Assembly (NCBI GenBank): GCA_026874595.1
Contig: CM049307.1
Span: forward strand, 76,236,643-76,300,642
Source of the DNA: Sipunculus nudus
Taxonomy: Eukaryota > Annelida > Sipuncula > Golfingiida > Sipunculidae
Direction of reading: 5' to 3'
DNA: 64,000 nt
Shown here: positions 18,134 through 59,890 of the stretch, in pieces
Numbering within the stretch: the first letter of the stretch is position 1
Layout of the letters: every line of letters begins with the position of its first letter
Translations under genes and position numbers: made by a program
The notes under the pieces: generated by a model
What the model was told of the DNA's origin: nothing
The model's input: only the letters and a program-made list of their open reading frames with translations
The model's database searches: none

Positions 18134-18797
18134 ATAATTAGCCTTAAAAAACTGGCTAATTACAGTAAGTTTCAGAAGTTTTGAACTGAGAAAACAGTAC
18201 TGAAACCAGACATTCATATACTCAAACTAGAGTTGATCTGAATTAATAATTGGATATGACACCAAATTGATGTTGTAGTGTATACTTGCACAATGAAATT
18301 ACCCCACTGTTAGGAGTTAAGCACAACATTGTTTCAGGATTAGCATATACCTTGAAGATTTGGCTAGAACACATGCATGTTTTGTGAGTAATGCTAGTTC
18401 AGTGATACCTGGACATCATTATTGGGTTGATATAAACCCAGATTAGAGTGAAAATTTTTGATGTTGTTAGATACGCCTTGGTATAATTTTTCCTACACTG
18501 GTTTGTGATTGGTCACGTGGTAGGGTCTCTTGACAGGTAAGTTTACCCCTCCCGATTGGCATGGTAATCATAGGTGCATGGTGTTTATTGATATCTTGAT
18601 ATCCATCCGTCCATCCGTCTGACCCTTCGTCCGACCGTCCGTCCGTCCGTATAAGTAGATTTTGATGCGTGGAGCTACCGTAGTGTTATTGTACGGATAC
18701 CGCCGGTTCGTTAGGTTGGCTTTAACAGTACGTATTTACGGATTTTTAAGAGCGGATATTACTAGATACTGGAATCTTACTAGGTTAGAGCGTTACC
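18134..18797 (+). other. Retrotransposon 5' leader
   Basis: Untranslated leader between the primer-binding site and Gag. It contains a CCGTCCATCCGT / CCGTCCGTCCGT microsatellite at about 18605-18650, similar in unit to the GACG tracts of the pearl-like elements around it. Confidence 0.6.
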
Positions 18798-21746
18798 ATG
18801 GAAACGTTAGAGTCACTTGTTAGATGCGGACAGGCCTTGGGGCTTAAGGACCAGGCTTTACAAGATTATGTTGAGGCTAGACGGCGTGCGGATGAGGAAC
18901 GCGAGGAAAGAGCTAGGCAACGTGAAATAGAGAAGGAACAGCGGGAATTAGAGCGTGAGCAGCGGGAATTAGAGCGCGAGCGAGAGGCTAGAGCCCACGA
19001 ATTAGAGGTTCTAAGGTTAAAGTCTGACTCTGGGGTTAAAGAAGAGAGAAGTAGGGATGTATTCCCGAAAATCCAGCTTCCACCTTTTGATGAGGCTCAC
19101 GATCAGCTTGATGCGTTTCTTGAGCGATTTGAACGATTAGCTGTATGTCAAGGCTATGATAGGGAGAATTGGGCGTTACACCTGAGTCTGTTACTGCAGG
19201 GTAAGGCGCTAGGGACTTACACACAGTTATCGGTTAGTGAGGCCATGGATTACGATAAGTTAAAGATAGCCTTGTTAAAGCGATACCAAATGACCGAAGA
19301 GGGTTATCGACACAAGTTTCGGACTTGTAGGCCTGAGCGAGGCGAAACGCCGAGTCAGTTTGCGGTGAGACTGAGTGGATACCTAGACCATTGGATAGGG
19401 ATGGCAGGGGTCGGAGGTGACTACGACGGGGTAGTTAACCTGTTGATGTGTGAGCAGTTCGTAAACTGCTGTAGTAGGGATCTCTCTATGTTTTTGAAAG
19501 AGAGACGGTGTCGTGACTTTGATAGTATGGTAGACTTAGCCGAGAGTTATACGGAGGCTCACGGTGTACACAGCCTTACAGCAGGTCCTCGTTATGGCAA
19601 TAATGTGCCGCGTCCAGCGCAACCGGTATCTCAGCCTAGAGAGAAGCGAGAGGTTGAGCGCAGTCCGGGCGGTCAGACATTTAAGCCATCAGGAGGCATC
19701 AGATGTTATTTATGTAATGAACTGGGACATAAGGCGCGGGAATGTAAGACTAGTGCCCGGTCGAGGCCTAGGTCTTCCCCTCAAGTAGGGCGTGCTGCTG
19801 GCGATCAGCAGAGGTATAGGACTAATTTTAGCCCCCTGTATAACCCAAAACAGAAACCGGAGACTATGTCAATGGCAGTAGTCGAGGCGGAAACGGAGAC
19901 AGTCGGTGCGGTGAAACCGGAAGTAGAGAGTCCGAGTCAGTCGTTAGGATTTGCTGCTCAGACAGAAGGCGGAATCTCGTTACCTGTGTGTGAAGGGCTG
20001 GTGAATGGTAAGTCAGCGAGGGTGCTGCGGGATTCGGGATGTTCCTCGGCAGGAATACGTGAGTCGTACGTGGAGCCGAATCAGTTCACCGGACACCAGG
20101 TCGAGTGTAGGTTGTTTGACGGGTCTGTAAGACAATTTCCTACGGCTAGGATTAATGTGGACTGTGCGTACTTTGTCGGTACTATCGAGGCAATGGTGGT
20201 CGGGGATGCTGTATGTGATTTAGCGCTAGGTAACGTAGCGGGAGCGCGTGGTCCGTATGATCCGGACCCGACGTGGAAGTCTGAGCGGTCCTCAGGCATA
20301 GTGTGTGACGGTGTAGAGTCACAAAAGGAGGTGTCGTCCGCGGTGGAGACACGGAGCGCTGCACGAGAGAAACAGATACCGACGCGTAGCTTGAATGTTG
20401 CAAGCCCAGTTGCCGATGTGAGTCCGGCCGAATTTTTGAAGGCGCAGGAGGAGGATGGGTCTTTAGCGCCGTATTGGAGGCTAGCTAGAGAGGCTAGAAA
20501 TGATAGTCCATTTAGAATTGAGGACGGATATTTAGTTCGGGTTGTGAGTGATAAACGGGGAGATCAAGATGGATCTCGAGTGGTGGTACCTCAGACGTTA
20601 CGGTACGACGTAATGAGGAGGGGCCACGAAGCGGTTATGGCGGGCCATCAGGGCATAGACAAAACGCACGACCGCGTGAGAACTCAGTTTTTCTGGAAAG
20701 GGATGTATAATGACATTGCTGAGTTTTGCAAGTCCTGTCCCATTTGCCAGAAAACCATACCGAAAGGCAAGGTGCCTGGAGCTACGTTAGGCCAGATGCC
20801 ATTAATTGATGAGCCCTGGCGTAGAATTTCGATGGATCTGGTTGGGCCGATCCATCCAGCGTCTGAGAGAGGTCACAGGTATATTCTGACCGTTATGGAT
20901 TATGCCACTAGATATCCGGAGGCTGTTGCTTTAAAGAACATAGATACAGTCTCCGTGGCTGATGCGCTAGTTGATATTTATGCGCGGTTAGGAGTGCCGT
21001 CAGAGGTGCTTACTGACATGGGAACACAATTTACGTCAGACCTCATGCGAGAAGTTAGCCGTGTTTTGTCTGTAAGACAGCTCACCACTACTCCTTACCA
21101 TCCTATGTGCAACGGAATGGTGGAGAGATTCAATGGAACGTTAAAGTTAATGTTGAAACGGATGTGCGAGGAAAGACCGCGAGATTGGGATCGGTACCTC
21201 AGCGCCGTGCTTTTTGCGTACCGAGAAGCGCCACATGAGAGCACAGGGTTCTCACCCTTTGAGTTGCTCTATGGTAGGATCGTTAGAGGACCGATGCGGA
21301 TTCTAAGGGATCTGTGGACCAAGCGAGATACTAGCGTCGAGACTAAAACCACGTACCAATACGTCCTGGACCTACAAGACAAACTAAGCGACACATACGC
21401 GTTAGCTAGAGAGGCGTTGAACAAATCAGCGAACAGACACAGACTGTTATATGATAGAGGTAAATGCACGCGCAGGTTTGAGGCCGGAGACGAAGTTTTG
21501 TTGTTACTCCCGACGGAGCGGAACAAATTAATGGTACAGTGGAAAGGCCCCTATACTATTGTAAACAGGGTTGGGGACTTAGACTATCGGATTAAGATTG
21601 GCGATAAGGTTAAAACCTTCCACGTGAATATGCTGAAACGGTACCATGCTAGAAACGAGCCCCAGCATATTCTGGCAGCGGTAGCCAAGGGCGCACCTGA
21701 TTCTATACATGATCCTGACTGTGTAGACGGGGAAACAGAGCACTGA
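18798..21746 (+). CDS. Gag-protease-integrase polyprotein of Gmr1-like element
   Basis: 982 codons from an ATG in strong context (ACCATGG). Residues about 25-72 are a Glu/Arg coiled coil. About 90-260 are a capsid-like region whose C-terminal half ([18 protein letters not shown]) resembles the SCAN fold known to derive from Gmr1-like Gag. A CCHC zinc knuckle uses C303, C306, H311 and C316. An aspartic protease-type DSG is at 412-414. Integrase follows directly: zinc finger H610, H617, C647, C650; catalytic D680, D740, E776 (35 residues between the last two); then a GPY/F-like module around 913-935. Gag, protease and integrase are in one frame without a frameshift. The frame ends in TGA just before the RT remnant, which continues in another frame. 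The missing RT is a deletion, not a family trait. Confidence 0.9.
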
Positions 21747-22344
21747 TAGACCTAAGACAAAGAAGGCTTTGCGAGCATTCCTAGGTCTTACAGGGTACTA
21801 TCGAAAATTCGTGCCAAACTATGCGGAAATAGCGGTCCCCTTGACTGATTAAACGCGTAAAGGTCAACCTAACAAACTAGACTGGAAACCCGTACACGAG
21901 AACGCGTACTGTTCTCTAAAGGCTAAACTGTCAGACCCTCCCATACTGAAGCTACCTGATTTCAGTAAACGATTTTATTTGAAATGTGATGCATCTGATG
22001 TGGGTATTGGCTGTATCCTGATGCAAAGACACGAGGGGATCATGCACCCAGTAGCTTATGCCAGTCGTAAACTATTGCCCAGGGAGAGAAATTACTCCAC
22101 CATCGAGAAAGAGTCATTAGCAATTGTATGGTCTGTACAGAAATTTGAGATGTACCTGGCTTGTAGACCGTTCGCCATTCAGACCGACCACAAACCATTA
22201 AAGTGTATTAGCAAATCAAAATGTGCTAATAAGAGAGTAATGAGATGGGCACTGGTTCTACAAGAGTTTAGATTTGATATTGAAGCAGTGTCAGGTAAAC
22301 TAAACCATGGACCTGATTTTCTTAGCAGACTGCCTGAGTGTTAG
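21742..22344 (+). pseudogene. RT thumb plus RNase H remnant of the retrotransposon
   Basis: It continues from the integrase frame but shifted by one. It opens with a typical gypsy RT thumb/connection block ([17 protein letters not shown]) and is broken by an in-frame TAA at 21850-21852. RNase H follows with acidic residues in CDASDVGIG, EKESLAIVW and TDHKPL, and ends HGPDFLSRLPEC then stop. The upstream RT fingers and palm, including the YxDD catalytic motif, are missing. The frame change places the deletion junction near 21740. The RNase H half alone is open from 21979. Confidence 0.88.
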
Positions 22345-28694: not shown

Positions 28695-29514
28695 TCAAAG
28701 AGACGATTCGTCCACAGGAGGGCGCGACAGGTTTATTCCTGGAGCCGGACCTCGGTGCACCATATCAGGCGGGGGACCTATGCTTCCAAAAGAAGAGTTC
28801 AGATTTGGTCTAGGTGGAGGAGGGCCGCGTGGAAATGGTCCCCTCGGGAAGCCAGGCGGACCCATCCTAGGTGGACCCATGCCCGGAGGACCCATTCTGG
28901 GTGGGCCCATGCCAGGTGGACCCATGGGTCGCATACGTATATCTTCTCTACTACCCATGCCTGGAGGAGGACCCATGTATCGCATGCGGATATCTTCTCG
29001 GCTACCCATACCTGGTGGCGGACCCATAGGTCGCCGGATGTCTTCTCTGCTACCCATTCGTATCTGCCCTGGCCGTGGACCCATTCCCATCATTGGGGGA
29101 GGCGGCCCACCCATCATGCGTGGCGACGGTTCACTCGGTGCAGGACTGCCCATCATCGGTAAAGGCCCACTTCTTATTGACTGAGGGCCACCCATTATGG
29201 AGGGCGGGCCGCTAATGATTGATGGAGGCTCTCCCTCTTGTGGCGGCCTCGTTCTGGGACCAGCAGACGGCGGAGGACCCAGTCCCATTGGTCTATACTG
29301 CGGGGCTTCCTCTAACGTTGGGAGTTTTTCCGTCATGCTCACGTTCAGCATTCCTTTCTGGCTTCTGTCCAAACGACTCCCGAATGTACGACCGCTAGTC
29401 AGCGACATCATAGAAGGCGCACGGCTGCCCCCTCTTGTGTTTGCCTTCCTCTGACCACGTGGGATGTCTTGCAGCGCCTGCGGACTGAATGTCCCCGTTT
29501 GTAGGTTCTTTTCT
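28695..29514 (-). CDS. Two-TM gene B, exon 3 (Pro-rich tail)
   Basis: Acceptor TTTTTTCCATAG (AG at 29516-29515). The first base completes the codon from exon 2, and 272 codons then run to TGA. The Pro/Gly/Met-rich tail holds three GSREDIR repeats in a GPPPGM context and alternating GPPRM/GPPGM words. Plus-strand frames across it are shadows. Confidence 0.85.
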
Positions 29515-32473
29515 CTATGGAAAAAATACAAATCATTATAAAAATATTAATTATCAAAGTGCCAAAATGAACGGTAAAAATCTTACACAAATAACCTTAA
29601 ATGAACATGTACGTTGCGCCACCTATCTTGTACAACCAATTTTTTGTCCAGGAGCCATGGTCGAATTTGTTAATCTTGATTTAAATCCGTGCAATCCTTC
29701 AGAGTAGGTTTTACACCAATGTTCCTTTACCGGCTTAATTGTAACAAGGCCTACAGGCCTTATGCGAACCTGTGCAAGGGTTTATGCACCAGGTACAATG
29801 CTCCAATGCTGGGCCATTACTTTTTCAAGTAGGTCTACATGTCTTGTATACGACGAAGGTATCAGAGATGTATACATATGCCTAATTTCAGGCTGATATC
29901 CCCTCCTGAGAAATAAGCAGGGACATCCACTGTGCAAAAATTATTGTAGGTGGCGCCACCAGTCTTGTATACGACAAAGCTTTACGATTTGTATAAATTT
30001 GCCCAATTTCAGGCTGGTATATCAAATTCCCCTGGAGAAATAAGCAGACACATACACCTTGCAAAAGTCATTGTAGGTGGTGACACCTGTCTTGTGAACG
30101 AGAAAGCCATCATAGACGCAAAGACAGGTAAAAATATCAGGCCAATACATCAAACTTCTTGAGTATGATGCACTGGGCTGACTAGGCTTAGGTGAGAAAG
30201 ACAGTTGCCCCTGGTAAACTGTGACAAATTGCTGGCTCAAGCTACTGCACTGTGTGAACTCCTGACCTGTACCTGGCTGCACTGATTGATCTCTTGACCT
30301 GCTGCATAATCTGATACTATGGGCAGTTTGCCAAAGCTATTAATAGAATCCAGCTACTGCACTGAGTGAGCACTTGACCTATACCTGGCTGCACTGAGTG
30401 AACTCTTGACCTGTTGCCAAATCTGATACAGTTGCCAGTCTGCCAAAGCTATAAATAGATCCAGGCTGACCTTTGGCCTGTTGCAAAATCTGAAATAGTT
30501 GGCAGTCTGCCAAGCTATTTAACCTGAAATCTAGAAGCATGATGTTATAGATACTAATAAACTGGTTCTCAGGTTAGATGTAACTACTTCACAAAGCTAA
30601 CATATATGGTAAAATGACCCAATTCAATCTCCATAATTCAGCCAAAAATCTTTTATGTGGAACCATTAAAGACTATTATTATAAGAATTATTGTTAAGAT
30701 TATTCTTGTAAAACATTAAACAAACTGGCTTCAGTGGCGTCAGTCGTAAAACGTTTTGCAGGTTTATCACTCATTTAGGAAGAAACAGCAAACTGGCTAA
30801 GTTCAGCTTCCCGTAACTCAACCAGAAAGCACTGAACCAAAACCATTTGAACAAACTTGAATTATCAACATCTGAGGATAATTAATGTGTGACATTTAAG
30901 AATCTGGCCCAGTGGTTTCAGAGAAGAAGTTCTTAGTAGCCCTCAGTATGATACAGTCATTGATGACCCTACAAAAAAAAAGGCTGATGCAGGTGGCGCC
31001 ACCAATACCTCAATTTCAGATATGACTCATGTGACCAACACTGGCATAAAATTTGGTGATGATAGCTCCAGCCTCCAGCCGTTTCTGAGACTGAAATTTT
31101 AGTATTTTTTGACAGATGACTAAGTTCAACTACCTGTAACTCGGCTAAAAATCACCGAACTGGAACCATTCGAACAAACTTGAGAGAGATGGTATAAGAG
31201 ATTATTTCTGTAAAATATTGAACAATTTGGCTGGACCGTTTTGGAGAAGAAGATTTTTAAAAGTTTTTTTTTTACTTTTTTTTCTCTATAAAATCTAAGA
31301 AAATGCAGTTAGCAAAAAAAAAAAAAAAAGAAAAGCAAAATCCGATTGAGTTTCAGATGGCTATTTTTTTGCATAAAATTTCGTAATGCTAGCGCCTGTC
31401 ATTTTCGAGATAGTATTGGTTAACGTACAGACGACGGACGACGCCACACCATCGCATTAGCTCACAGGTTCGCTTAAAACTCCCTGTTATTTATACGAAC
31501 AGATTCAAATACTGGTTTGAATATTTGTACTTGCATGGCGGTATGACAACAAAAGCTAAGGCAAGCCAGGATAGTATTTGACAATTGAATCCTTTTAAGG
31601 ATTGTTATGAATAAGACCGCTTAAACTTAGAAATTACACAATTGTTATATATGAGACAATGTTATTTAACAACTGGCTTGCTCGATCTTTTGAGCTTTTG
31701 TAAGATTGTAATGCTTAAGACAACTAAATCTTTGAAATTACACAATTGTTATATATGAGACATTATCAAATAATTGGCTGACTCAATCTCCTCGCATGAT
31801 GATAGGAATACCTGTTTTAACTGGAACTACTAGTTATTTTAAGATTATGATTAAATGCAGAATATATTTGTCCACCAATCTTAAACAACATCAAAGATGT
31901 TACAGCGCTACTAGAGTTACTGCGACCTTATCATAATTCTAACCTTATACAGTTTGATTTTAGCCTGCTGACGAACAAACAGGACCGATCACTACAATGT
32001 AGTGTGCTTGGTCAAATACACCTGATTCAAATGACCAGTTTTGTATTTTATGATTCTTGAGGCAACTTTTGTAAGACAGAGAGCCACTCTGAAATTTTGC
32101 TCTTGAAAATAGATATATTTTGAGTAGGAGAACACTTTTTCACTAATTCACTTCTGAAAATGTACCTACAATCTGAACTAATGAAAATGTAGGTGGTGCC
32201 ACCTTAGAAAAGAATATGTTTGCTCATTTAAAATTGAAGACGCGAACACGCCATTTTTTAAGTGTATAAAAACACAGGATGGGGAATTTGAGACAAACAC
32301 TCTCATGTGAGCAGACTTTGTGACAATCCCAAGACCACTGTGTTCGACAGTTAGAGCAACAAAAGGTAGATACTTTTTGCAGAGCTTATGCACAGTAAGA
32401 AATAATTTCAAGTCATATTCTACGAGGAATACCAGTATTTTTCATGTTTACTTCATAATGAAACAAATAAATA

Positions 32474-32592: not shown

Positions 32593-33550
32593 CTGTCTAT
32601 CTCACAGACACACACACCTATTCACTGTTGGACCCACTGTTATAACTGCATGGACTGTTCCTACTTTTTATTATTGATTTTGTTTACAGAGGGAATGTAT
32701 ATATTATGATTTTTGGGTCAACCTAATACTGATGACATGGGGTGCAGAACAGTGAACTTACAGCTCATTTTCTGGGTCTTCTGTATTATATGGCACCACC
32801 TCATCCATTCCCAAAGGTTTGAACTGAAAAACATGGCACGACCAGGTCATTATTGTAGGATTATTTCTGTCAAGATCATACATCAATGATAGATGTAAGG
32901 CTGAACATAATGTAAAATATGCATATGTGGGGTTCACATGCAGATACAAACATTTTTATTGTAGAAAAGGTTAATCAAAATATTACATGGAGTAATATAA
33001 GTCCAATAATAAGTTGTAGCGGATTAATCTTTTAAGAGAAGTTAACCTATAATTAGGTTTTATTTTATACTAAGTGTACTTAGTTTTCATGTTTGTTTAG
33101 AGAACGAAGAGCTTTCTTTGATTCAATTTGTTTAGTTGACGCATTTGATATGGCTGATCTTACCCTGAGCTGCGCGCGCCATCTGTTGCTGGCTAGGCGA
33201 GCCGAGTAGAAGCAATGCGAAGCCATCCCAATGCAAAGTATGGCTGCGGCGATGCAGAGAGGTCCCAGCATCTCAGTCCTGTAGACGATCATACGGCTGA
33301 CGTTCCTCAGCCCCAGATACGTTATCCCTGCAGCACCGAACAGCACCATCGCAATCAGAAAAGCGAAGGCATACTTACCATACGCTTTGCCGGGTCCTAT
33401 AAATGTACGGTTTAATAATGTTAGAGGCGACGGGCCGTAAGGCTTTTCAGGTTTTGGTTTCTTGAAGACGTAACCCGGTGGAAACAACGTTTGCGCCGTG
33501 GCCGTACTGGCCATAGACGCCAGAGAGGGGTATTTGTTTAAGTTAGACAT
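28695..33550 (-). CDS. Two-TM protein with Pro/Gly/Met-rich tail, three exons, complete
   Basis: Exons (descending) are 33550-33164, 32823-32762 and 29514-28695; phases 0 then 2, all GT-AG. Predicted protein is about 422 aa. Residues 1-60 are soluble and Pro-rich. Membrane segments are at about 61-81 and 95-117, separated by a short loop (RNVSRMIVYRTE). A basic stretch (ARLASNRWRAQLR) ends exon 1. Exon 2 encodes an acidic linker (FKPLGMDEVVPYNTEDPENE). Exon 3 encodes a 272-residue disordered tail with GPP-rich runs and three copies of GSREDIR. A minus-strand AATAAA lies 32 bases past the stop (28663-28658). I do not recognise the family; topology resembles small two-TM proteins such as TMEM200/PIRT only in outline. 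Same layout as the gene at 59890-46624. Confidence 0.8.
29743..31476 (+). mobile_element. Pearl/HINE-like element, second subfamily, in gene B intron 2
   Basis: Head: ACAAGG followed by the 7-bp palindrome arms AAGGCCT/AGGCCTT and GCGAACCTGTGC. The core has about three units of 126 bp (29815-30170, each with 'ggtggcgccacc'-like and 'atttcaggctg' words), then about three units of 100-115 bp (30235-30520, 'ctgcactgagtgaac'). Tail: GACGACGGACGACG microsatellite, then GCTCACAGGTTCGC and TTAAAA. The inner boxes GCGAACCTGTG and CACAGGTTCGC are inverted repeats. Same grammar as the GCTCAGCTGA subfamily with different words. Confidence 0.6.
32478..32588. repeat. (TA)n microsatellite in gene B intron 2
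   Basis: About 110 bp of TA dinucleotides with three short AATATATAAT interruptions. Confidence 0.95.
32762..32823 (-). CDS. Two-TM gene B, exon 2
   Basis: 62 bp between a TTTTTCAG acceptor and a CT|GTAAGT donor. Encodes a 20-residue acidic linker and leaves two bases for exon 3. Confidence 0.78.
33164..33550 (-). CDS. Two-TM gene B, exon 1
   Basis: 129 codons from ATG (context ACAAGATGT) to AGG|GTAAGA. Carries both membrane segments. Reading on past the donor is open for 27 codons, but joining to 32823 gives a continuous and better supported frame. Confidence 0.8.
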
Positions 33551-34180
33551 CTTGTTGGTTGTAGCTGTGATGTCCTGGTTAAAAACCTATTTACACAAAT
33601 CCTTTGGAGTTGTTCTGTTCTTTTCTTTGGCGGTCTCAAATATATAGTCTTCTATCGAAATCAACATGTCACGTGTCTGCTTGTCGCACAAGAAGACACT
33701 TTTGAGTTTCAACTCCGGAATCACATCTTTAAATCTTGGTTAGTTTCTCAGCTTGCTATGTCCGCCATGATGTTTGAAGCCGTTTAGCCCGTCCAAATGG
33801 GTCACCCAATCAGTTAATGATTAACCTACGGAAAACAGCGTCTTCACGTTGAGCTGATAATAGACCCGCGTAATGCCAAAGGTATGCGGTGAAATCAAAC
33901 TCAACCGCTCGGTAGCTCTCGAATGTGCTCGTTAGATAAACTATCCGCTTACAGTGAAGCCCTTTGATAAGCCGGCACACGCATCGAATGTTATATTCTA
34001 CATATGCACCCGTCACAAACGCCGTCCTCATTCAAAACAAAAACGTACAAATAGATAAGCATAGATAGATATAAACCGTGTTTTATACGTTTTCATCTCA
34101 ACTGATCAAAATTCATCTTTTAATTAATTTACATAAAGTGTTAACGAAACCCGCCCTGTGTGTCTGGCCGTCTGTCTAGC
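33551..34180. other. Upstream region of two-TM gene B
   Basis: Expected to hold the minus-strand promoter and leader. I see no clear TATA box. A 73-codon minus-strand frame at 34031-33810 starts MRTAFVTGAYVEYN but matches nothing I can name; it may be chance in a less AT-rich promoter region. Confidence 0.35.
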
Positions 34181-44754: not shown

Positions 44755-45845
44755 ACCCCTGATACAGCTTACTTCTGATATATGATGCTCTGCTGAACCA
44801 AATTACAGCTTACTTCTGATATAAGGTCTGCTGAACCAAATTACAGCTTACTTCTGATATTATGCTCTGCTGAAAGAAATTACAGCTTTCTTCTGATATT
44901 ATGCTCTGCTGAAAGAAATAACAGCTGAATTCTTATATTATGCTATACTGAGCTAAGTTACAGTATATCTGATATTATGCTCTGCTGAAAGAAATTACAA
45001 CTTATTTCTGATATTTTGCTCTGCTGAAAGAAATTACAGCTTACCATTGATATTATGCTTTGCTGAAAGAAATAACAGCTGAATTCTTATATTTTGCTAT
45101 ACTGAACTAAGTTACAGTATATCTGATATGATGCTCTGCTGAACAAAATTACAGCTTACTTCTGATATTATGCTCTGCTGAAAGAAATTAAAGCTTACTT
45201 CTGATATTATGCTCTGCTAAAAGAAATAACAGCTGAATTCTTATATTTTGCTATACTGAACTAAGTTACAGTATATCTGATATGATGCTCTGCTGAACAA
45301 AATTACAGCTTACTTCTGATATTATGCTCTGCTGAAAGAAATTAAAGCTTACTTCTGATATTATGCTCTGCTAAAAGAAATAACAGCTGAATTCTTATAT
45401 TTTGCTATACTGAACTAAGTTACAGTATATCTGATATGATGCTCTGCTGAACCAAATTACAGCTTACTCCTGATATTATGCTCTGCTGAAAGAAATTACA
45501 GCTGAATTCTTATATTTTGCTATACTGAGCTAAGTTACAGTATATCTTATATGATGCTCTGCTGAACCAAATTACAGCTTACTTCTGACATTATGCTCTG
45601 CTGAAAGAAATTACAGCTGAATTCTGATATTTTGCTATACTGAGCTAAGTTACAGTATATCTGATATTATGCTCTGCTGAAGGAATTACAGCTTACTTCT
45701 GATATTATGCTCTGCTGAAAGAAATTACAGCTTACTTCTGATATTATGCTCTGCTGAAAGAAATAACAGTTTACTTCAGATATTATACTCTGCTGAACCC
45801 ACACATCAGATATTATGCTTTGCTGAACTATTTTACAGCTAAATT
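44755..45845. repeat. Satellite of 38-39 bp monomers with 154-bp higher-order unit
   Basis: The monomer resembles 'attacagcttacttctgata' plus 'ttatgctctgctgaaagaa'. Four variant monomers form a block of about 154 bp that recurs. Its marker 'gctatactgaactaag' lies at about 45096, 45250 and 45404. Flanking parts are single-monomer arrays. A 61-codon minus-strand frame here is a repeat artefact. Confidence 0.88.
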
Positions 45846-46623: not shown

Positions 46624-47509
46624 TTATGCAACATCTGGGGTGTTCTCTCTGGTGCTTTGTAATGACTCTGTGACACAGAAAGAAGTGACTGATTGGTTCT
46701 CGCCTGACCTGGGACCAGTGCGGGAAGCAGTGGGTGAGCAGTTTATAATCGTTGCCGTGTATAAAAATGTATCGTCCACCGATGCGGTCGTTTCGTTTCT
46801 CGGATCTACAGGAGAATATGGTGGAAGATCTGCTGGATCTGGTAAAGGATCCACTGATCCACTTGGATCAGGTGGAGGATCCATATTTCTAGATGGGTCA
46901 AGTTCATCACGATTTATACACAGACTAGGAACAGGTTCCATAACATTAGATGGATCCGATGGTGAATCGTTTGTGTCTCTACACGGATCAGGTGCCAGAT
47001 CCCTCATCCTGCCTGGGTCCAAAGTGGGTTCCGTATCTGGATAAGGATCTGGTGAGCATTCTGACCGTTTATACGGATCTGTGACTGAATACGGAGGCAG
47101 TGCTGACACAGCAATGTCACGCGGCAGCGTGCTGTAAGCTGGTAACTGGGGTAGATCATTCCCTGACCAGTCTCCGTCCCTTGGTGTGTAAGGTGGAGCT
47201 TCTTCGTGGGGCAGATTCTCATTACTATATGGAGGTAAATACACTGGAGGCGTGACGTCGGTATTCCAGCTCTGACCACTGCTGCTGCCATCGTAAGCAG
47301 GTATGCTGTCTCTGGGTGTATATGGTGGAGCTCGTATAGGGTAACATGTCTGATCGGAAGGTACAGATGATGCTGTCGGGAGGCGTCGGCTGGTTATGAT
47401 GGCTGCCAGCTGACCGTTTGGGAACGTCATCATCTGGACCTCCATGTTGTCCAATAGGGCTAATCTGGTTGTGCCCTCTTCTCCCCGAAGCTGCTCAAAA
47501 GGTACAGAC
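46624..47509 (-). CDS. Two-TM gene C, exon 3 (PY-motif tail)
   Basis: Starts at CTGCAG|GTCTGTACC (AG at 47511-47510). The first base completes a codon from exon 2. Then 294 codons follow, beginning SVPFEQLRGEEG, to TAA at 46626-46624. The ATG at 47454 is internal, not the start. Confidence 0.82.
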
Positions 47510-50500
47510 CTGCAGTAAATACAAAAATATCACAAAAGAGAAGAAAGGTACGAACCTGCAGTAAATACAAAAAATATCACAAAGGAAAAGAAAGGTACAA
47601 ACCTGCAGTAAATACAAAAATATCACAAAGGAAAAGAAAGGTACAGACCTGCAGTAAATACAAAAAATATCACAAAAGAGAAGAAAGGTACAAACCTGCA
47701 GTAAATACAAAAAATATCACAAAGGAAAAGAAAGGTACAGACCTGCAGTAAATACAAAAATATCACAAAAGAAAAGAAAGGTACAAACCTGCAGTAAATA
47801 CACAAATATCACAAAGGAAAAGAAAGGTACAGACCTGCAGTAAATACAAAAATATCACAAAAGAGAAGAAAGGTACAATCCTGCAGTAAATACAAAAAAT
47901 ATCACAAAGGAAAAGAAAGGTACAGACCTGCAGTAAATACAAAAAAATATTACAAAAGAGAAGAAAGGTACAAACCTGCAGTAAATACAAAAAATATCAC
48001 AAAGGAAAAGAAAGGTACAGACCTGCAGTAAATACAAAAAATATCACAAAAGAGAAGAAAGGTACAAACCTGCAGTAAATACAAAAAATATCACAAAGGA
48101 AAAGAAAGGTACAAACCTGCAGTAAATACAAAAAATATCACAAAGGAAAAGAAAGGTACAAACCTGCAGTAAATACAAAAAATATCACAAAGGAAAAGAA
48201 AGGTACAGACCTGCAGTAAATACAAAAAATATCACAAAAGAGAAGAAAGGTACAAACCTGCAGTAAATACAAAAAATATCACAAAGGAAAAGAAAGGTAC
48301 AAACCTGCCCGAAATATAAAAAATATCACAAAAGAGAAGAAAGGTACAAACCTGCAGTAAATACAAACAAGGGACCTATGGGTCACGACGCTCAGCTGTT
48401 ATATGTGATAAAAAAATATTATTTAGAAATGAGGCACATGCTGGTTTTGGGTGGTAATAAATATAAGCTGTATTATGAGTTGTTGTTGTTTAGCTTATGT
48501 ATGATTTTGATAGTACCTTTGGAGACAGGGAAGAGGATTGATTTCATTTATTTTATTAACAAATGGAGTACTATTGTCACACAGATTTTGACTTGGCCAT
48601 ATAACTTATAAGCAGAACATATAATATAAGAGTTTAACTATTTATTAAAAAAAATTACAAAAATTGTCCCAAATATAATTTTTATAAAAAATAATAAGAG
48701 AATCATATGATTTTCTTAAATGAAATATAACTGATATGATTATTAAAATAATATTAAAGAATATATTCATGAATGCATTCATGAATACATTTTGAAAGTA
48801 TTTGCACGAGTATTCATATACTTTCATTTTTACCTGAATTCCTATTCTTTATGCAAGAAATTTTATAATGGAGTACATAATCATATTCGTATTTAAATAC
48901 AATTACAAAGTATTTGCACCATGTCTGGTATTTATTCAGTTTCACCAACCAATGATGTTGAGAATCCAGAATATACAAAATTCACACATTTAAATAATGA
49001 TCATAAGTACCTGGTTTTATGGCTTTTATTTATATTAAAAAATAACTGTAAAAAATTCATTTTGGAATAATTTCACTTCTATGTACACACTAGACACAGT
49101 AGGAATCTAGATTAATATTAACAACTGCATCTTTGTCTTTCATTAATTTCCTTCATAATATCCCTAATGATAAGTAATGAATAATATGATTTACTTCTTT
49201 ATCATTAAAATTGAACTGAAAAATGCCGTAGGTGACTGCATGGTGTTATTTTGAATATGTGACATTCTACCCATCGATACAAGATTCTTATATCATCAGT
49301 AACTGCAAGTTAATTTCCTGTTATTATAAACTAACAAATTCCTTTTCTATTTTTCTTTAATTTGTTATTAAAAAACAATAAAAATTTATTAATTTATTGT
49401 TTATTGTTATGTTGTTGGTTAAAACTACTAGATGAGTTGGGTTGGACACCTGGATCAACTGTGGCTGGCCATAAGCTGCCTGGATTCCTGTATGCCTCGC
49501 CTCAAGCGTGCATAATTTGATGAAAGGTCAACAAGGTCAACATACAGGTGACTCAAGAGGGGCTGGAGAGAGCCAAAGTCTGACAGGGTCTCATAAAAAA
49601 CATTAATAAAAGCTACAATTTTTGGCCAATTTCTTTCAGCTTTCTAAACTAAAAAGCTGAAATCCTAATGTGTGCATGATATGAAAATTATATCAACAGT
49701 GCTCACAGGACACAAACATGCCATGGTCACAGTTGGGCAAAATTTAAGGTACTAATTTTTTATTTATACTAATAACTTATAAAATTTGAAAAATTCAGAA
49801 CTAATTTTGGGGTATTCAATTGAATCTTGATTAAATAATGTTACATCCCTGACAAAAAAATCTCTAGCTTCAGCAATGCCCTTGTTAAGGGAGTAAATAT
49901 AGTTCTTGATATTTTACAAAGTGCATTATGTTTGGGCCCATAACTTAAAACAATTACGCAATACTGACATCATTCTGGCATGTGCATAGAGAATGAAAAA
50001 TATGTATATTATTTATGATTAAAGTCAGATCAGTGGTTTTGATATTAGGCAGTCTTGAAGTGTAACAATGGGTTTTTAATGGAAAAATGAAGTTTTTCAT
50101 TAATATCTCGAAGGTATTAAGTCCTAGTGACCAAATTCTTGGCATGGTAGGGGATTTTGGAGACATCTATCTGTATGCCAAATTTAAGGAACTAAGAGCT
50201 GAAGCTGGGGAGCTGAGCTCTTGCAAACTGCATAACACTAGCTTGATGTAAACAATATGTTACATGGTGATTGAAAACTTATTAAAATCTACAGTTTTTG
50301 ATCAACTGGTTTCAAATTTTTGGTGTTAACAGTTGAAATGCTAACAAAAACATGCTGTGAAAATTAAATCCACAGTACTTACAGGAAAAAAACGTGCCAT
50401 GGTCAAAGTTGGGCAAAATTTAAGGTACCAATTTTTATTTTTATTAATATTTTAGAAAATTTAAAAGATTTTCATCTAATTTTGGGTATACAATTTAATT

Positions 50501-53500
50501 TTTATTAATTAAAGTTATATTACTGGAAAAAAGGTCGATAGCTTTAACATTTTTTGTGTTAAGTGATCAAATATCTTTCCTGATTTTTTACAAAATGCAT
50601 TATGTTTGGGCCCATAACTTTTTTAAATTAAATAATACAGACATAATTTCTGGCATGTACATAGGAACTATATAGAGGAATATTTATGGCAAATATGAGG
50701 AAAAACAGATGAGGGGTTTTGATATTAGGCAGTCCTGAAGTGTGAAAATAGGTTTTTAATAAAAAATTGAGGCTTTTCCTTAATTTCTCAAAGGAACGAA
50801 GTTGCAAAGACCCAGTTTTCGGCTTGGTAGGAGATCTTGGGGACATCTAACATTATGCCGAATTTTGGATTCCTAGGTCTCACGGTTTCAAAACGTGCCA
50901 CATCTACGGATGGACGGACGGACGGACGGACGGACAGACGGACGGACGACGGACAATGGACCACGACTATAGCTCAGATGACTTATAGTCAGCTGAGCTA
51001 AAAATATCACAAAAGAGAAGAAAGGTACAGAGCTGCAGTAAATACAAAAAATATCACAAAAGAAAAGAAAGGTACAAACCTGCAGTAAATACAAAAAATA
51101 TCACAAAGGAAAAGAAAGGTACAGACCTGCAGTAAATACAAAAATATCACAAAAGAGAAGAAAGGTACAAACCTGCAGTAAATACAAAAATATCACAAAG
51201 GAAAAGAAAGGTACAGACCTGCAGTAAATACAAAAAATATCACAAAAGAGAAGAAAGGTACAAACCTGCAGTAAATACAAAAAATATCACAAAGGAAAAG
51301 AAAGGTACAAACCTGCAGTAAATACAAAAAATATCACAAAGGAAAAGAAAGGTACAGACCTGCAGTAAATACAAAAAATATCACAAAAGAGAAGAAAGGT
51401 ACAAACCTGCAGTAAATACAAAAAATATCACAAAGGAAAAGAAAGGTACAAACCTGCAGTAAATACAAAAAATATCACAAAGGAAAAGAAAGGTACAAAC
51501 CTGCAGTAAATACAAAAAATATCACAAAGGAAAAGAAAGGTACAGACCTGCAGTAAATACAAAAAATATCACAAAGGAAAAGAAAGGTACAGACCTGCAG
51601 TAAATACAAAAATATCACAAAAGAGAAGAAAGGTACAAACCTGCAGTAAATACAAAAAATATCACAAAGGAAAAGAAAGGTACAGAGCTGCAGTAAATAC
51701 AAAAATATCACAAAGGATAAGAAAGGTACAGACCTGCAGTAAATACAAAAATATCACAAAAGAGAAGAAAGGTACAAACCTGCAGTAAATACAAAAAATA
51801 TCACAAAGGAAAAGAAAGGTACAAACCTGCCCGAAATACAAAAAATATCACAAAGGAAAAGAAAGGTACAAACATGCAGTAAATACAAAAATATCACAAA
51901 AGAGAAGAAAGGTACAAACCTGCAGTAAATACAAAAATATCACAAAAGAGAAGAAAGGTACAAACCTGCAGTAAATACAAAAAATATCACAAAAGAGAAG
52001 AAAGGTACAAACCTGCAGTAAATACAAAAATATCACAAAAGAGAAGAAAGGTACAAACCTGCAGTAAATACAAAAAATATCACAAAAGAGAAGAAAGGTA
52101 CAAACCTGCAGTAAATACAAAAATATCACAAAAGAGAAGAAAGGTACAAACCTGCAGTAAATACAAAAATATCACAAAAGAGAAGAAAGGTACAAACCTG
52201 CAGTAAATACAAAAAATATCACAAAAGAGAAGAAAGGTACAAACCTGCAGTAAATACAAAAATATCACAAAAGAGAAGAAAGGTACAAACCTGCAGTAAA
52301 TACAAAAATATCACAAAAGAGAAGAAAGGTACAAACCTGCAGTAAATACAAAAAATATCACAAAAGAGAAGAAAGGTACAAACCTGCATTAAATACAAAA
52401 ATATCACAAAAGAGAAGAAAGGTACAAACCTGCAGTAAATACAAAAATATCACAAAAGAGAAGAAAGGTACAAACCTGCAGTAAATACAAAAATATCACA
52501 AAAGAGAAGAAAGGTACAAACCTGCAGTAAATACAAAAATATCACAAAAGAGAAGAAAGGTACAAACCTGCAGTAAATACAAAAATATCACAAAAGAGAA
52601 GAAAGGTACAAACCTGCAGTAAATACAAAAATATCACAAAAGAGAAGAAAGGTACAAACCTGCAGTAAATACAAAAATATCACAAAAGAGAAGAAAGGTA
52701 CAAACCTGCAGTAAATACAAAAATATCACAAAAGAGAAGAAAGGTACAAACCTGCAGTAAATACAAAAAATATCACAAAGGAAAAGAAAGGTACAGAGCT
52801 GCAGTAAATACAAAAATATCACAAAGGAAAAGAAAGGTACAGACCTGCAGTAAATACAAAAATATCACAAAAGAGAAGAAAGGTACAAACCTGCAGTAAA
52901 TACAAAAAATATCACAAAGGAAAAGAAAGGTACAGACCTGCAGTAAATACAAAAATATCACAAAAGAGAAGAAAGGTACAAACCTGCAGTAAATATAAAA
53001 ATATCATAAAGGAGAAGAAAGGTATCTTTGAAAGTAAGTTAGGCAATATACTGGTGTAATGCTCAATATATTTTATTTATGTATCATAAGCAGTATTGTA
53101 TATATCCAGTATTGTGGTAAACTTATTTGTAGAGATGTCATGCTAAAATGTGGTTGTTCCTAAATGCATGAATTCAGTGTTTGTTTGCTATCATTAACAA
53201 TTTGAAATGTTAAAATGTTAAGCACAGATTAATGGGAAGGTGGTGAAGGAAACTTGATCAATGTTATATCAGCTTTAAAAAAATCATCAAAATATTTCTT
53301 GTGTTGATTTTTGCAATACATACTGTATATCATCTGTATCCATTGATATATTATGATATCTATTGTCCTACTCTACTCTGAAGCAATAAAGTCCAGCAGT
53401 TTCTGCCTGGTCAATGATTTTTTTACAAACCAGAAGTCTTTCTTTGGTTTATAATTAGAAATAAAAAATAAAGCTTAAACAAATAATACACTGCTCAAAA

Positions 53501-56500
53501 CAACATAGACAGCAGGGGCGGTATCAGAATTAATGAAAAGGGGGAAGAGGGAGCTAGGGCTATAAAGCAGGAGGACAAATGAATAGAATTGGTCTTTAAG
53601 GATATGTTTTTGAGCTTTTTCAAAATATGCGTCTTGTGATCAGTTTGAAACCTACGTGTCTACCCAAACTGGAGTTATCATATATCAACTAATTTGTGAA
53701 TGGGTGGGCCCTGTGACTTTTGACCTAGTGACCCCAAAATCAAATGGAAACTTCCCCTATTGGCAGGTGCGCCACAAGACTGAAGGTTTGGGATGAAAAG
53801 TTTAGCTTGAAATGCATTCACTATCTTTCTAAATGAGTGGGTCTTGTGAATGACCTTTGACCTCATGACCCCAAAATCAACAGATTTCTTGTGTTAGAGG
53901 TAGGCCATATGTAAGTTAAGTCTGAACCTGATATGTCGACTGAAATTGATCATTCAACTGAGCTAAAACTAAAAAAAAAAGGTTCTCACGTCTAAAAAAA
54001 GAGAGAGTCCAGACAACAAAGTTTTGTCATAAATCCTTGAAAAAAAATTGAGGGGACTGAAAAACAAGTGACCCATGGGTCATGACGCTCAGCTGACTGA
54101 GAAGTTCGCAAAAGGAAATTTTATCATCTGAATGGTAGTATATACCAATTCAACTGAAGCATCAAACAGATTAACCAACAGGCCAAGATTGAGTCTGTGT
54201 TTATATATCTCAAAAATAGAGAAAAAAATGTGTAAACTTTAAAAAAATTCAGGTGGCTCCACCAGGCTGCAGAAACTAATATAAAAAAACATGGTAAATA
54301 TCCATGCAAACAATTATGGTGATCTCTGCATTAGTTGTTCAGATACTTCAGCTTTTGTATCAAATTTTACATTAATCTGAGCTGTACTTTGGAGTGCCAT
54401 AGCTCAAATGATATGGGTAACAGAGACCAAAATTCAGGTTTCCATGGAGACTTTTCATGGGTCTCCCTGTGTGTCAAGAATGAAGATTTTAGGTCCAGTC
54501 CTAACGATTTGTACCCTGTTGACAGATAACTACATCCTTAAAGGTCTCAAAAATAGAGAAAAAAAAAATATGGTAAAAATTTGAAAAAATACAGGTGCCA
54601 CCAGTCTGCAGGAACTGATGGAACGCCTCTTGATCAATATGTATGCCAAAAATCATGACCATCAGTGTTGTAGTTATTGAGATGTTGCAGTTTTTTTTAT
54701 CAAATTTTCCATTATTCTGGGGGGTATTTTGGAGCCCCACAGCTCAAAGGATATGGGTAACAGAGGCCTTATTTCTGGTTTCCATGGAGACATTTCACAG
54801 GTCTCTCACTGTGTCAAGAAAGAAGATTCTTGGTCAAGTTTTTACGATTTGTGCCCTCTCAACAGATGTTCATATTTTAAAAGGTCTCAAAAATGGAGAA
54901 AACAATTCGTAAAAAATCGAAAAATACAGATGGCACCACCAGTCTGCAGAAACTGATGAAACATCTCATGATCAATATGTATGCCAAAAATCATGACCAT
55001 CAGTGATGTAGTTAATGAGATATTGAAGTGTTTGTATGAAATTTTTGACTATTCTGGGGGGGTACTTTGGGGCCCCATAGCTTAAAGGATATGGGTATCA
55101 GAGACCTAATTTCTGGTTTCCGTGGAGACTTTTCATAGGTCTCTCAGTGTGTCAAGACTGAAGATTCTAGGTCCAGTCTTTACGATTTGTGCCCTGTTAA
55201 CAGATGTTCACATTTTTAAAGGTCTCAAAAATAGAGAAAAAAATTCTTAAAAAATCGAAAATACAGGTGGTGCCACCAGTCTGCAGGAACTGATGGAACA
55301 TCTTATGATCAATATGTATGCCAAAAGTCATGACCACAAGTGATGTAGTTAATGAGATATTGAAGTTTTTGTGTGAAATTTTTTACTTTTCTGGGGGGGG
55401 GGGGGGGTACTTTGGGGCCCCATAGCTCGAAAGAGATGGGTAACAGAGACCTAATTTCTGGTTTCCAAGGAGATTTTTCATGGACCTCTCAGAATGTCAA
55501 GTAACAAGTTTCTAGGTCCATCGGTTACAATTTGTTAATGGACGGACGGACGGACAGACAGACAGACAGACGGATGACGAACAAAGGGTGATCGCTATAG
55601 CTCAGATGACTTACAGTAAGCTGAGCTAAAAAACAGGGGGGGGGGAGTATAGACATCCCTATCTGCATCTGAACAGGTATCCAAATACTGTGGATGTCTA
55701 TCATGTCTTTATGTTTGCGAGGGTTTCAAATCTGTGATGTTCACAAAAAGGAAATTATCATGAAAATAAAAGCATTCTGCATAAGAGGCCCCATCAGCAT
55801 AGGCAAATCAAAAGAATGAAGATTGCTATTATTGATGATATGTCAAAACTTTCAAATGAAGAGGAATTTCTACTCCTTTGATTGTCTCTTGGGTCCCCTT
55901 CCAGTCATTTTTGCTCATATATTATCTATTCTAACATCAGAAATCCATATAATTATTTATAAGCTCTGTGTAAATTACTGTATGGAATGCTCATGAAAAT
56001 GGAACCATCGTGAAACAATGAAATAGTGAAAAAACTTGAAATTTTAACCCGGCAATATGAAGGCAACCACATTAACTTCAAACTGACCAGTTTATCAACA
56101 CCTGTCTCCAACAGTATTTGCAGTAAGCTCAGTGTATTACTTCTATTAAATTTCATATATCAACAAAAGGGGTGTGGTAATATAGCCAGACCCCTAATTG
56201 TATAGTTACAGACCATCTGTTCTCACCTGATGTCTGCTTCCAGGAGGCGCCTTGGAGCCGTATTCTCTTCATCTTCTTGCTGTAATTAATCATAAGTTTC
56301 CTTCATTAAATTTTTTTCTTCTTATTATCAATAAGTTATTGAAAACCCAGATAATAATGCAGGATATTGGGAGCTAGTTAATGATACAACACATTTCATG
56401 ATACACCCAGTAATAAGACACCCAATTTATTTCAAATTACTTTTATTTGAATTAATTCAATTAAATTGGATAAAAAGTACCTGTACTTAAACAAGGGACC

Positions 56501-59500: not shown

Positions 59501-59890
59501 GCAATCTCACCAAATCCATAAATAACTTTTTGAGTAGCTTACAAACAAATAGGACAAACAAACCAACACAGGTAAAAACAAAACCTCCTTTGCAGAGGTA
59601 ATATTTAGAAAGATAGTGACCTGTAATTGCTCCTGAGACTCCCTGGCTTGAGCCAGTCTGTGGAGGACAGCCTTGGAGAAGCACAGGACAGCGCCCCCTA
59701 GCATCACAGGACCAGCGATGAAGATCGGGTTCTGTGACCGAATGTTACGGAATCCATCAGCCGTGATGATCGTACCCACAACCAGCATCAACAGCCCCGT
59801 GAAGAAGTATGCGGTGGATGCCCGAGATGACCGTAAAATGTCACAGACCTGTAACGCTGATGCTGGTTCCCTTTCTGTCTCTGAGTCCAT
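46624..59890 (-). CDS. Two-TM protein with PY-motif tail, three exons, complete
   Basis: Exons (descending) are 59890-59621, 56279-56227 and 47509-46624; phases 0 then 2, GT-AG. Predicted protein is about 402 aa. Membrane segments at about 27-45 and 55-76; the second opens AGPVMLGGAVLC, echoing GPLCIAAAILC in gene B. Exon 2 is an acidic linker (QEDEENTAPRRLLEAD). Exon 3 encodes a disordered tail with four LPxY motifs (LPPY three times, LPAY once), one PPxY (PPVY), two APPYTPRD repeats and a PDP/DPS-rich acidic part. LPxY/PPxY are ligands of WW domains, for example in NEDD4-type ubiquitin ligases, so a membrane adaptor role is possible but unproven. Introns of 3.3 and 8.7 kb hold mobile elements and a minisatellite made from the exon 3 acceptor. 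Family not recognised. Confidence 0.8.
47498..47545 (-). promoter_or_regulatory. 3' splice site of gene C exon 3, also the last unit of the minisatellite
   Basis: Minus strand: a pyrimidine-rich CTTCTCTTTTGTGATATTTT, then GTATTTACTGCAG and the exon bases GTCTGTACCTTT. The whole block is one unit of the array that continues upstream in the intron, so the true acceptor is followed by dozens of near-identical decoys. Confidence 0.8.
47498..48367 (-). repeat. Splice-acceptor minisatellite, segment 1 (about 19 units)
   Basis: 46-47-bp units. On the plus strand each reads AAAGGTACAAACCTGCAGTA then AATACAAAAATATCACAAAAGAGAAG in sense. Two unit types alternate: AAAAGAGAAG and AAAGGAAAAG. One unit has CCTGCCCGAAA in place of the CTGCAG core (about 48305). 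Frames open on the minus strand across the array are repeat artefacts. Confidence 0.95.
48368..51000 (+). mobile_element. Full-length pearl/HINE-like element inserted in the minisatellite
   Basis: Left end CAAGGGACCTATGGGTCACG with a GCTCAGCTG box. Right end has a (GACG)n microsatellite (50913-50950), then a 31-nt hairpin (50970-51000) ending CAGCTGAGCTA. Array units resume on both sides, so the 2.63-kb limits are known to a few bases within an A run. The interior has two related blocks of about 600 bp (about 49680-50215 and 50330-50890), both with 'gccatggtcaaagttgggca'-like and 'aaatttaaggtac' words. No coding capacity. No clear target duplication. Confidence 0.85.
50970..51000 (+). other. 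Terminal hairpin of the pearl/HINE-like family (type copy)
   Basis: Arms TAGCTCAGATGACT and AGTCAGCTGAGCTA pair over 14 bp with one mismatch around a short TAT loop. The same hairpin occurs at 16528-16558 (reverse), 55598-55628, 59141-59171, 63811-63841 and, decayed, about 1230-1261. Confidence 0.85.
51001..53030 (-). repeat. Splice-acceptor minisatellite, segment 2 (about 43 units)
   Basis: Continuation of the array after the inserted element. Units at about 51880-52740 are homogenised to the AAAAGAGAAG type, while the outer parts mix both types. It fades at 53020-53030 (AAAGGTATC). Each unit keeps CTGCAG and the pyrimidine-rich stretch on the minus strand. Confidence 0.95.
53031..54063. 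other. Gene C intron sequence with a decayed pearl-like tail
   Basis: 53640-53960 repeats the 'gaccttgacctttgacc'-type blocks of the element at 1-1266 ('gaaggtttgggatgaaaag', 'gcttgaaatgcattca') and ends near CAACTGAGCTAAAA. The rest is unassigned intron. Confidence 0.5.
54064..55632 (+). mobile_element. Pearl/HINE-like element, full length, about 315-bp core repeats
   Basis: Left ACAAGTGACCCATGGGTCAT with a GCTCAGCTGA box. The core has about 3.5 copies of a unit of about 315 bp ('caccagtctgcaggaactga', 'atgccaaaaatcatgacca', 'tttccatggagac'). A GGACGGACGGACAGACAG microsatellite (55538-55572) and the terminal hairpin (55598-55628) with GAGCTAAAA follow. Same ends as the copy at 48368-51000 but an unrelated core. 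Confidence 0.8.
55633..56226. other. Gene C intron 2, unassigned part
   Basis: AT-rich, no feature seen besides a G run near 55637. It directly precedes the exon 2 donor on the minus strand. Confidence 0.4.
56227..56279 (-). CDS. Two-TM gene C, exon 2
   Basis: 53 bp between acceptor TTACAG (56281-56280) and a CAG|GTGAGA donor (GT at 56226-56225). Encodes 17 residues plus two bases. Too short for ordinary ORF detection but fits both neighbours in phase. Confidence 0.8.
56491..59171 (+). mobile_element. Pearl/HINE-like element(s) in gene C intron 1, with second head inside
   Basis: Heads ACAAGGGACCCATGGGTCA occur at 56491 and again at 56727. The right hairpin is at 59141-59171. A block of about 170 bp (56556-56726) is repeated at 57377-57546 ('ggggccctcctacttggtta', 'actctgacaagactgtcatg'). 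The tail body at 58500-59130 matches the family ('aaatttaaggta', 'gttttgatattaggcag'). One element nested in or recombined with another is likely. Poly-G at 58336-58349. Confidence 0.65.
59621..59890 (-). CDS. Two-TM gene C, exon 1
   Basis: 90 codons from ATG, ending at CAG|GTCACT (GT at 59620-59619), a somewhat weak donor. Both membrane segments lie here. The open frame beyond the donor is intron read-through. Confidence 0.78.

Follow-up and report, generated by a model that had tools for sequence, protein, structure and literature searches.

A minisatellite very likely seeded by the splice junction of a predicted Sipunculus nudus gene, and acceptor-like arrays at other exons of the same genome

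Tandem repeats that arise at the border between intron and exon have been described from amphioxus, where so-called mirage minisatellites are reported for the globin genes BflGb6 and BflGb9 and for Adh3, troponin C and PGBD5 (PMC3087553, PMC3902484; the second paper adds PGBD5 and cites troponin C). The BflGb6 mirage is a tandem repetition of the 3' end of an intron plus the 5' part of an exon; many mirage units carry AG/GT, array length is unstable between haplotypes (PMC3087553), and the arrays reportedly leave splicing intact (PMC3087553, PMC3902484). The VNTR in intron 18 of human ABCA7 starts at a donor and comprises 12 to ~427 units of 25 bp: its length has a measured correlation with lower expression and with more skipping of exon 19, while an isoform that retains one repeat unit shows no change with VNTR length (PMC5954066). 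In human duplicated genes variable tandem repeats at exon-intron boundaries alter splicing, with support from RNA (PMC2812944). A sequence-only reading of the array reported here was aware of no described case of this kind: the amphioxus mirages and the ABCA7 VNTR are such cases. In the literature searched (most subscription papers lay outside it) mirages were met with in amphioxus only, and no further mirage or boundary repeat in molluscs or other taxa, nor any paper on recursive splicing with tandem repeats, was found.

The array lies in the window – the whole 64,000-nucleotide stretch of Sipunculus nudus DNA that was analysed – within the predicted second intron of a minus-strand gene (Table 1). 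Joined in phase, the three predicted exons encode 402 amino acids, with two hydrophobic segments in exon 1 followed by a proline-rich tail bearing PPY motifs (as judged by eye). By the frame, also read by eye, a middle exon is required: exon 1 leaves off in phase 0, and exon 3 has to be entered in phase 2. Exon 2, which rests on frame fit, is the weakest part of the predicted gene model since its acceptor scores poorly. No Pfam family matches the gene above cut-off, so that the start of exon 3 is without a homology anchor. Array-free paralogs were sought by a protein search of the same genome: all three matches lie in this gene, two of them in exons 1 and 3 and a weak third where exon 2 is predicted. 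Another gene of similar design, with two hydrophobic segments and then a proline-rich tail, may occupy 28695-29546 and 33080-33586 of the minus strand, its kinship to the window gene being judged by eye. Just downstream of the gene lies a 39-bp minisatellite of 26.8 copies (44763-45797).

Table 1. Features of the window gene and its array (window coordinates), and exons with protein homology at which eight further arrays end. A caret marks a splice junction; values in the last eight rows are E-values.
Feature	Position	Strand	Basis or remark
Predicted exon 1, coding part, ends ...EQLQ^	59621..59890	-	Sequence, joined frame
Predicted exon 2, 53 nt, phase 0 in/phase 2 out, donor CAG^GTGAGA	56227..56279	-	Frame fit, splice signals
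TACCTTT at array 5' edge, proposed seed repeat	53018..53024	-	Unit parse
5' block of array: units 1-43 plus the opening 28 nt of unit 44	51000..53024	-	TRF, unit parse
Mobile-element insert splitting unit 44	48366..50999		Border uncertain by at least one T
3' block of array: the closing 19 nt of unit 44 plus units 45-62	47505..48365	-	TRF, unit parse
Exon-adjacent acceptor ...TTTACTGCAG^, part of unit 62	47510..47550	-	Unit parse, joined frame
Predicted exon 3 to stop codon	46624..47509	-	ORF 46624-47529, joined frame
TACCTTT in exon 3 at array 3' edge, second proposed seed repeat	47498..47504	-	Unit parse
L039: USP39			1.2e-15; match from residue 1 of peptide
L048: helicase, FANCJ/RTEL1-like			FANCJ 3.7e-7
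L049: MDM2			3.7e-17
L044: RIM C2A domain			4.3e-41 joined with two upstream exons; exon alone 0.1
L053: SLC6 transporter			2.5e-12
L057: leucine-rich repeat (LRR)			3.1e-10
L061: tyrosine kinase			8.5e-10
L058: dermatopontin-like			5.2e-7; match begins 43 residues into same ORF

Parsed in the TACCTTT...GTCTG register, the array consists of 62 tandem units on the minus strand (47498-53024): 31 are 47 bp long, 29 are 46 bp, one is 48 bp and one is interrupted. TRF divides it into a block of 47 bp x 18.6 (47498-48367) and a block of 46 bp x 43.6 (51000-53024). The sequence-only reading, which had reported about 60 copies of the gene's 3' splice site, 46-47 bp each, in one array from 47498 to 53030, was thus right as to copy number, unit length and start; the end lies at 53024, and the array is not continuous, being interrupted at ~48366-50999 by a mobile-element copy absent from that description. 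Among the 62 units 21 sequence types occur in irregular order: units 7-25 are near-uniform and the remainder are a mixture of a few main types, which is the pattern expected from growth by unequal exchange. In a mirage the edge units should escape homogenisation: unit 1, at the 5' edge, is a unique diverged type, in line with this, but unit 62, at the 3' edge, is identical to interior units (type B).

The commonest unit forms read TACCTTTCTT(C/T)TC(T/C)TTTGTGATATTTTT(T)GTATTTACTGCAG^GT(T/C)TG. CTGCAG, which the earlier description took to be retained by most units, is present in 58 of 62 (types F, H, I and P lack it); the acceptor AG is kept in 61 and AGGT in 57, and at 56 places in the array the sequence CAG^GT[TC]TGT would place a donor directly behind an acceptor. 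Dozens of acceptors upstream of that predicted for exon 3 had also been claimed, and AG is indeed found in 60 of the 61 upstream units. The last unit reads ...TTTACTGCAG^GTCTGTACCTTT and continues into a 301-codon ORF, so that the repeat unit takes in the first 12 nt (GTCTGTACCTTT) of predicted exon 3; its description as the true acceptor plus 12 exon bases agrees with the reading frame, by which predicted exon 3 starts at 47509 in a 402-aa product. With up to two mismatches allowed, the unit core TTTACTGCAGGTYTGTACCTTT has 61 matches in the genome (1.43 Gb), 60 of them inside the array. The array is therefore neither a chance product nor, as far as a search of this sensitivity shows, a dispersed satellite. 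The remaining match, on contig C5, was rejected as an isolated 22-mer with flanks unlike the unit (by eye). For a 221-bp query all 18 matches listed, a lower bound, fell at the window locus.

The insert measures ~2634 bp (2.63 kb), and the parts of unit 44 on its two sides, 28 nt and 19 nt, together make one unit of the usual 47 nt. A query of 1233 bp from its low-coordinate end (48368-49600) gave 2933 candidate places in a first look; the 40 places scored, the array insert included, are all 98-100% identical to the query. This identity, together with the splitting of unit 44, shows that the insertion is recent and postdates the array: the insert is a very young mobile-element copy. Family copies with similar ends lie near 59180, 56750, 56510, 55640, 54090 and 63840 of the window; by a visual comparison of these ends, the family begins TTAGCTCAGCTGACT... 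and finishes ...GGGTCCCTTGTT. On the plus strand, 18789-22344 holds retrotransposon-like ORFs in which a zinc knuckle and integrase-/RNase H-like parts were recognised by eye.

Three acceptor-like 9-mers in tandem were sought genome-wide by pattern search. For TTTGCAGGT, gaps of 25-55 gave at least nine arrays and gaps of 56-86 at least two more, both among the matches listed to contig C9; the full set of matches with gaps of 25-45 held no new array. For TTTACAGGT, gaps of 25-55 gave at least 18 arrays among the matches listed to contig C5. Arrays with acceptor-like units thus number at least 29, and in 26 of these 29 the end of the array was read (that of L046, L059 and L065 was not reached). 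For eight of the 29 arrays listed, the end falls at or within an exon that has protein homology (Table 1), and at all eight the first bases of the exon recur inside the units, as judged by eye and, for four of them, also from approximate prefix lengths: since these exons belong to known protein families, copying ran from exon to array. The border at the dermatopontin-like exon is less tightly anchored, because the match begins so far into the ORF. For the helicase exon the label RTEL1-like is tentative, the Pfam ARCH_RTEL1 matches lying far below cut-off. A further 18 of the 29 arrays, likewise read to their end, showed no exon with homology: ORFs follow four of them (L040, L050, L052, L060) without a significant Pfam match, and at the other 14 no exon was recognised. 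Before the LRR exon, matches to a 49-bp junction-derived repeat extend over ~17.6 kb (C3:48125048-48142618, ending in L057). L046 (4671-9901 and beyond, on C9) is a 28-bp satellite of at least 5.2 kb with TTTGCAGGT in most units.

As a control, 401-bp flanks on both sides of 10 of the 11 TGTTGATGC arrays (that on C16 left out; 97 ORFs of at least 35 aa) were compared with the 401 bp past the last listed match of every acceptor array but L046 (28 of 29; 147 ORFs; the flanks of L059 and L065 still lie within the array). Four Pfam families matched the control flanks at 0.01, the best E being 0.0011, and acceptor flanks at three arrays (kinase, LRR, dermatopontin) matched with E < 1e-4. This blind comparison at 1e-4 (3/28 versus 0/20) points in the same direction and is not significant (one-sided Fisher p ~0.19, calculated by hand). 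The case for recurrence rests on position: known-family exons begin right at the acceptor of an array, and that array contains copies of them. One control array (C14:15927452-15927638) has a unit that includes TTCTTTCTTTGTCAGGAAG, itself acceptor-like. A reversed-motif control (6 arrays) was replaced by TGTTGATGC (same letters, 11 arrays), the motif containing a CpG that makes reversal unfair; raw pattern counts (231 versus 25 and 422 versus 92) were set aside, since single large satellites inflate them, and donor-motif arrays contrasted poorly with their reversed control (1032 versus 662 matches).

The array opens and closes with TACCTTT. In the one-unit ancestral junction, reconstructed by eye, these copies would flank the intron-exon border at a spacing of 46 bp, precisely the length of one unit, and such a pair is the expected seed for slippage. 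The simplest route is that slippage or unequal exchange between the two copies duplicated 46 bp of sequence that began in intron 2 and reached into exon 3; further unequal exchange would have expanded the array to 62 units, and the mobile element would have entered unit 44 later. Each copy bears a near-complete 3' splice site and most, as they carry AGGT, would also be weak donors. That the array was seeded from the gene's own intron-exon junction, as the sequence-only reading proposed, is very likely, given the single locus, the TACCTTT ends and the eight similar exons elsewhere.

In a frame computation the full 402-aa product is obtained from the acceptor of unit 62 only, and from none of the 61 upstream positions (60 with AG), which bears out the claim that use of an upstream copy would change or abort the protein. 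From all of these upstream positions the frame ends prematurely, after 127-162 aa among the units listed (40-61). The premature stop would fall in the last exon, where no junction-dependent decay is to be expected, and a truncated membrane protein could therefore be made. Upstream copies likewise give no in-frame open extension at USP39 (0/7, six with AG), the RTEL1-like helicase (0/16, 12 with AG), MDM2 (0/3) or RIM (0/3; all with AG in the last two). Selection on the AG of the copies was not seen in the two arrays concerned: the in-register AG is missing in 4 of 16 RTEL1-like copies and in 1 of 61 upstream copies in the window. With good confidence we read the locus as a mirage-type minisatellite derived from the junction of intron 2 and exon 3, in which splicing most likely continues to favour the exon-adjacent copy, the sole one that yields protein; joining to any other copy would be noise, with a truncated protein as its product, and the array itself would be nearly neutral.

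Other readings give the copies a role. If upstream copies competed for the spliceosome, longer arrays would give more truncated product and less protein, and array length would act as a rheostat, the tuning of expression that the sequence-only reading suggested. In a scoring matrix that is badly calibrated, to judge from its poor score for the predicted exon-2 acceptor, 54 of the 61 in-register AGs of the array (the true one included) score at least as high as the true acceptor, against 10 of 324 intronic AGs outside the array and 6 of 122 in the insert; local sequence thus hardly distinguishes the true site, and no upstream choice yields protein. There is also a precedent on the donor side, ABCA7 VNTR length being negatively correlated with expression, although what changed with length there was exon-19 skipping and not the isoform retaining one unit (PMC5954066); amphioxus mirages, moreover, are said to leave splicing undisturbed. 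We consider such a rheostat unlikely. Alternatively, splicing to an upstream AG^GT would rebuild a donor at the exon-2 junction, from which a second step would remove the included units and rescue the protein. AGGT is present in 57 of 62 units, and computed U1 pairing of the unit donors (-7.2 and -6.6 kcal/mol) lies between that of the predicted exon-1 (-5.6) and exon-2 (-11.1) donors; of 318 other intronic GTs, 3 attain -7.2 and 6 attain -6.6. Known recursive sites, however, usually have the GTAAGT/GTGAGT form, which the unit donors do not show, one unit of 46 nt would probably be too small to serve as an intron, and AGGT may simply mirror the GT of the seeding exon; a recursive ladder is, we think, quite improbable.

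The order of events could be reversed, the array arising first as an ordinary intronic minisatellite whose last unit later became an acceptor. The window gene, with no Pfam match to anchor exon 3, would allow this; the single locus, the in-phase protein and the eight other loci at which a known-family exon has had its start copied by an array make exonisation very improbable. Tandem arrays are prone to misassembly, yet the 21 unit types in irregular order and the insert at one place argue against an artefact, as the single locus, at up to two mismatches in the core, argues against a dispersed satellite: this pair of explanations is almost certainly wrong. A broader proposition, that junction-born minisatellites are recurrent genome-wide in this lineage and that some are length-variable acceptor ladders, competing or recursive, which set the level of functional protein, we regard as unlikely.

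A single window thus led to nine such loci in an animal genome other than that of amphioxus, several in well-known genes (MDM2, USP39, RIM, SLC6). They raise three questions: how the spliceosome, offered dozens of near-identical acceptors, would settle on the one next to the exon; whether splice-junction arrays give rise to new introns; and whether differences in their length contribute to variation in expression.

The known systems each share part of this design. Introns attributed to tandem duplication of AGGT (Rogers 1989; Zhuo et al. 2007) have AGGT units as here, but there a new intron is reported to be made, whereas the window array sits inside a predicted existing one. The repeats of PMC2812944 are boundary repeats like the window array; they belong to human segmental duplications, and their splicing changes are RNA-backed. 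Like the window array, the ABCA7 VNTR begins at a splice site, carries one per unit and shifts the frame at the next copy, but it is donor-side with measured length effects; the window array does not begin at a donor but lies at an acceptor. The amphioxus mirages are, like the window array, tandem copies of an intron-exon boundary with AG/GT in many units; their units are 10-160 bp, and the BflGb6 haplotypes have 6 and 3 units compared with 62 here. With units that span the predicted intron-exon boundary and carry its splice site, the window locus joins the mirage kind; what differs from amphioxus is the animal genome concerned and the presence of nine loci within it, and this recurrence of junction-derived arrays in one genome is the new part.
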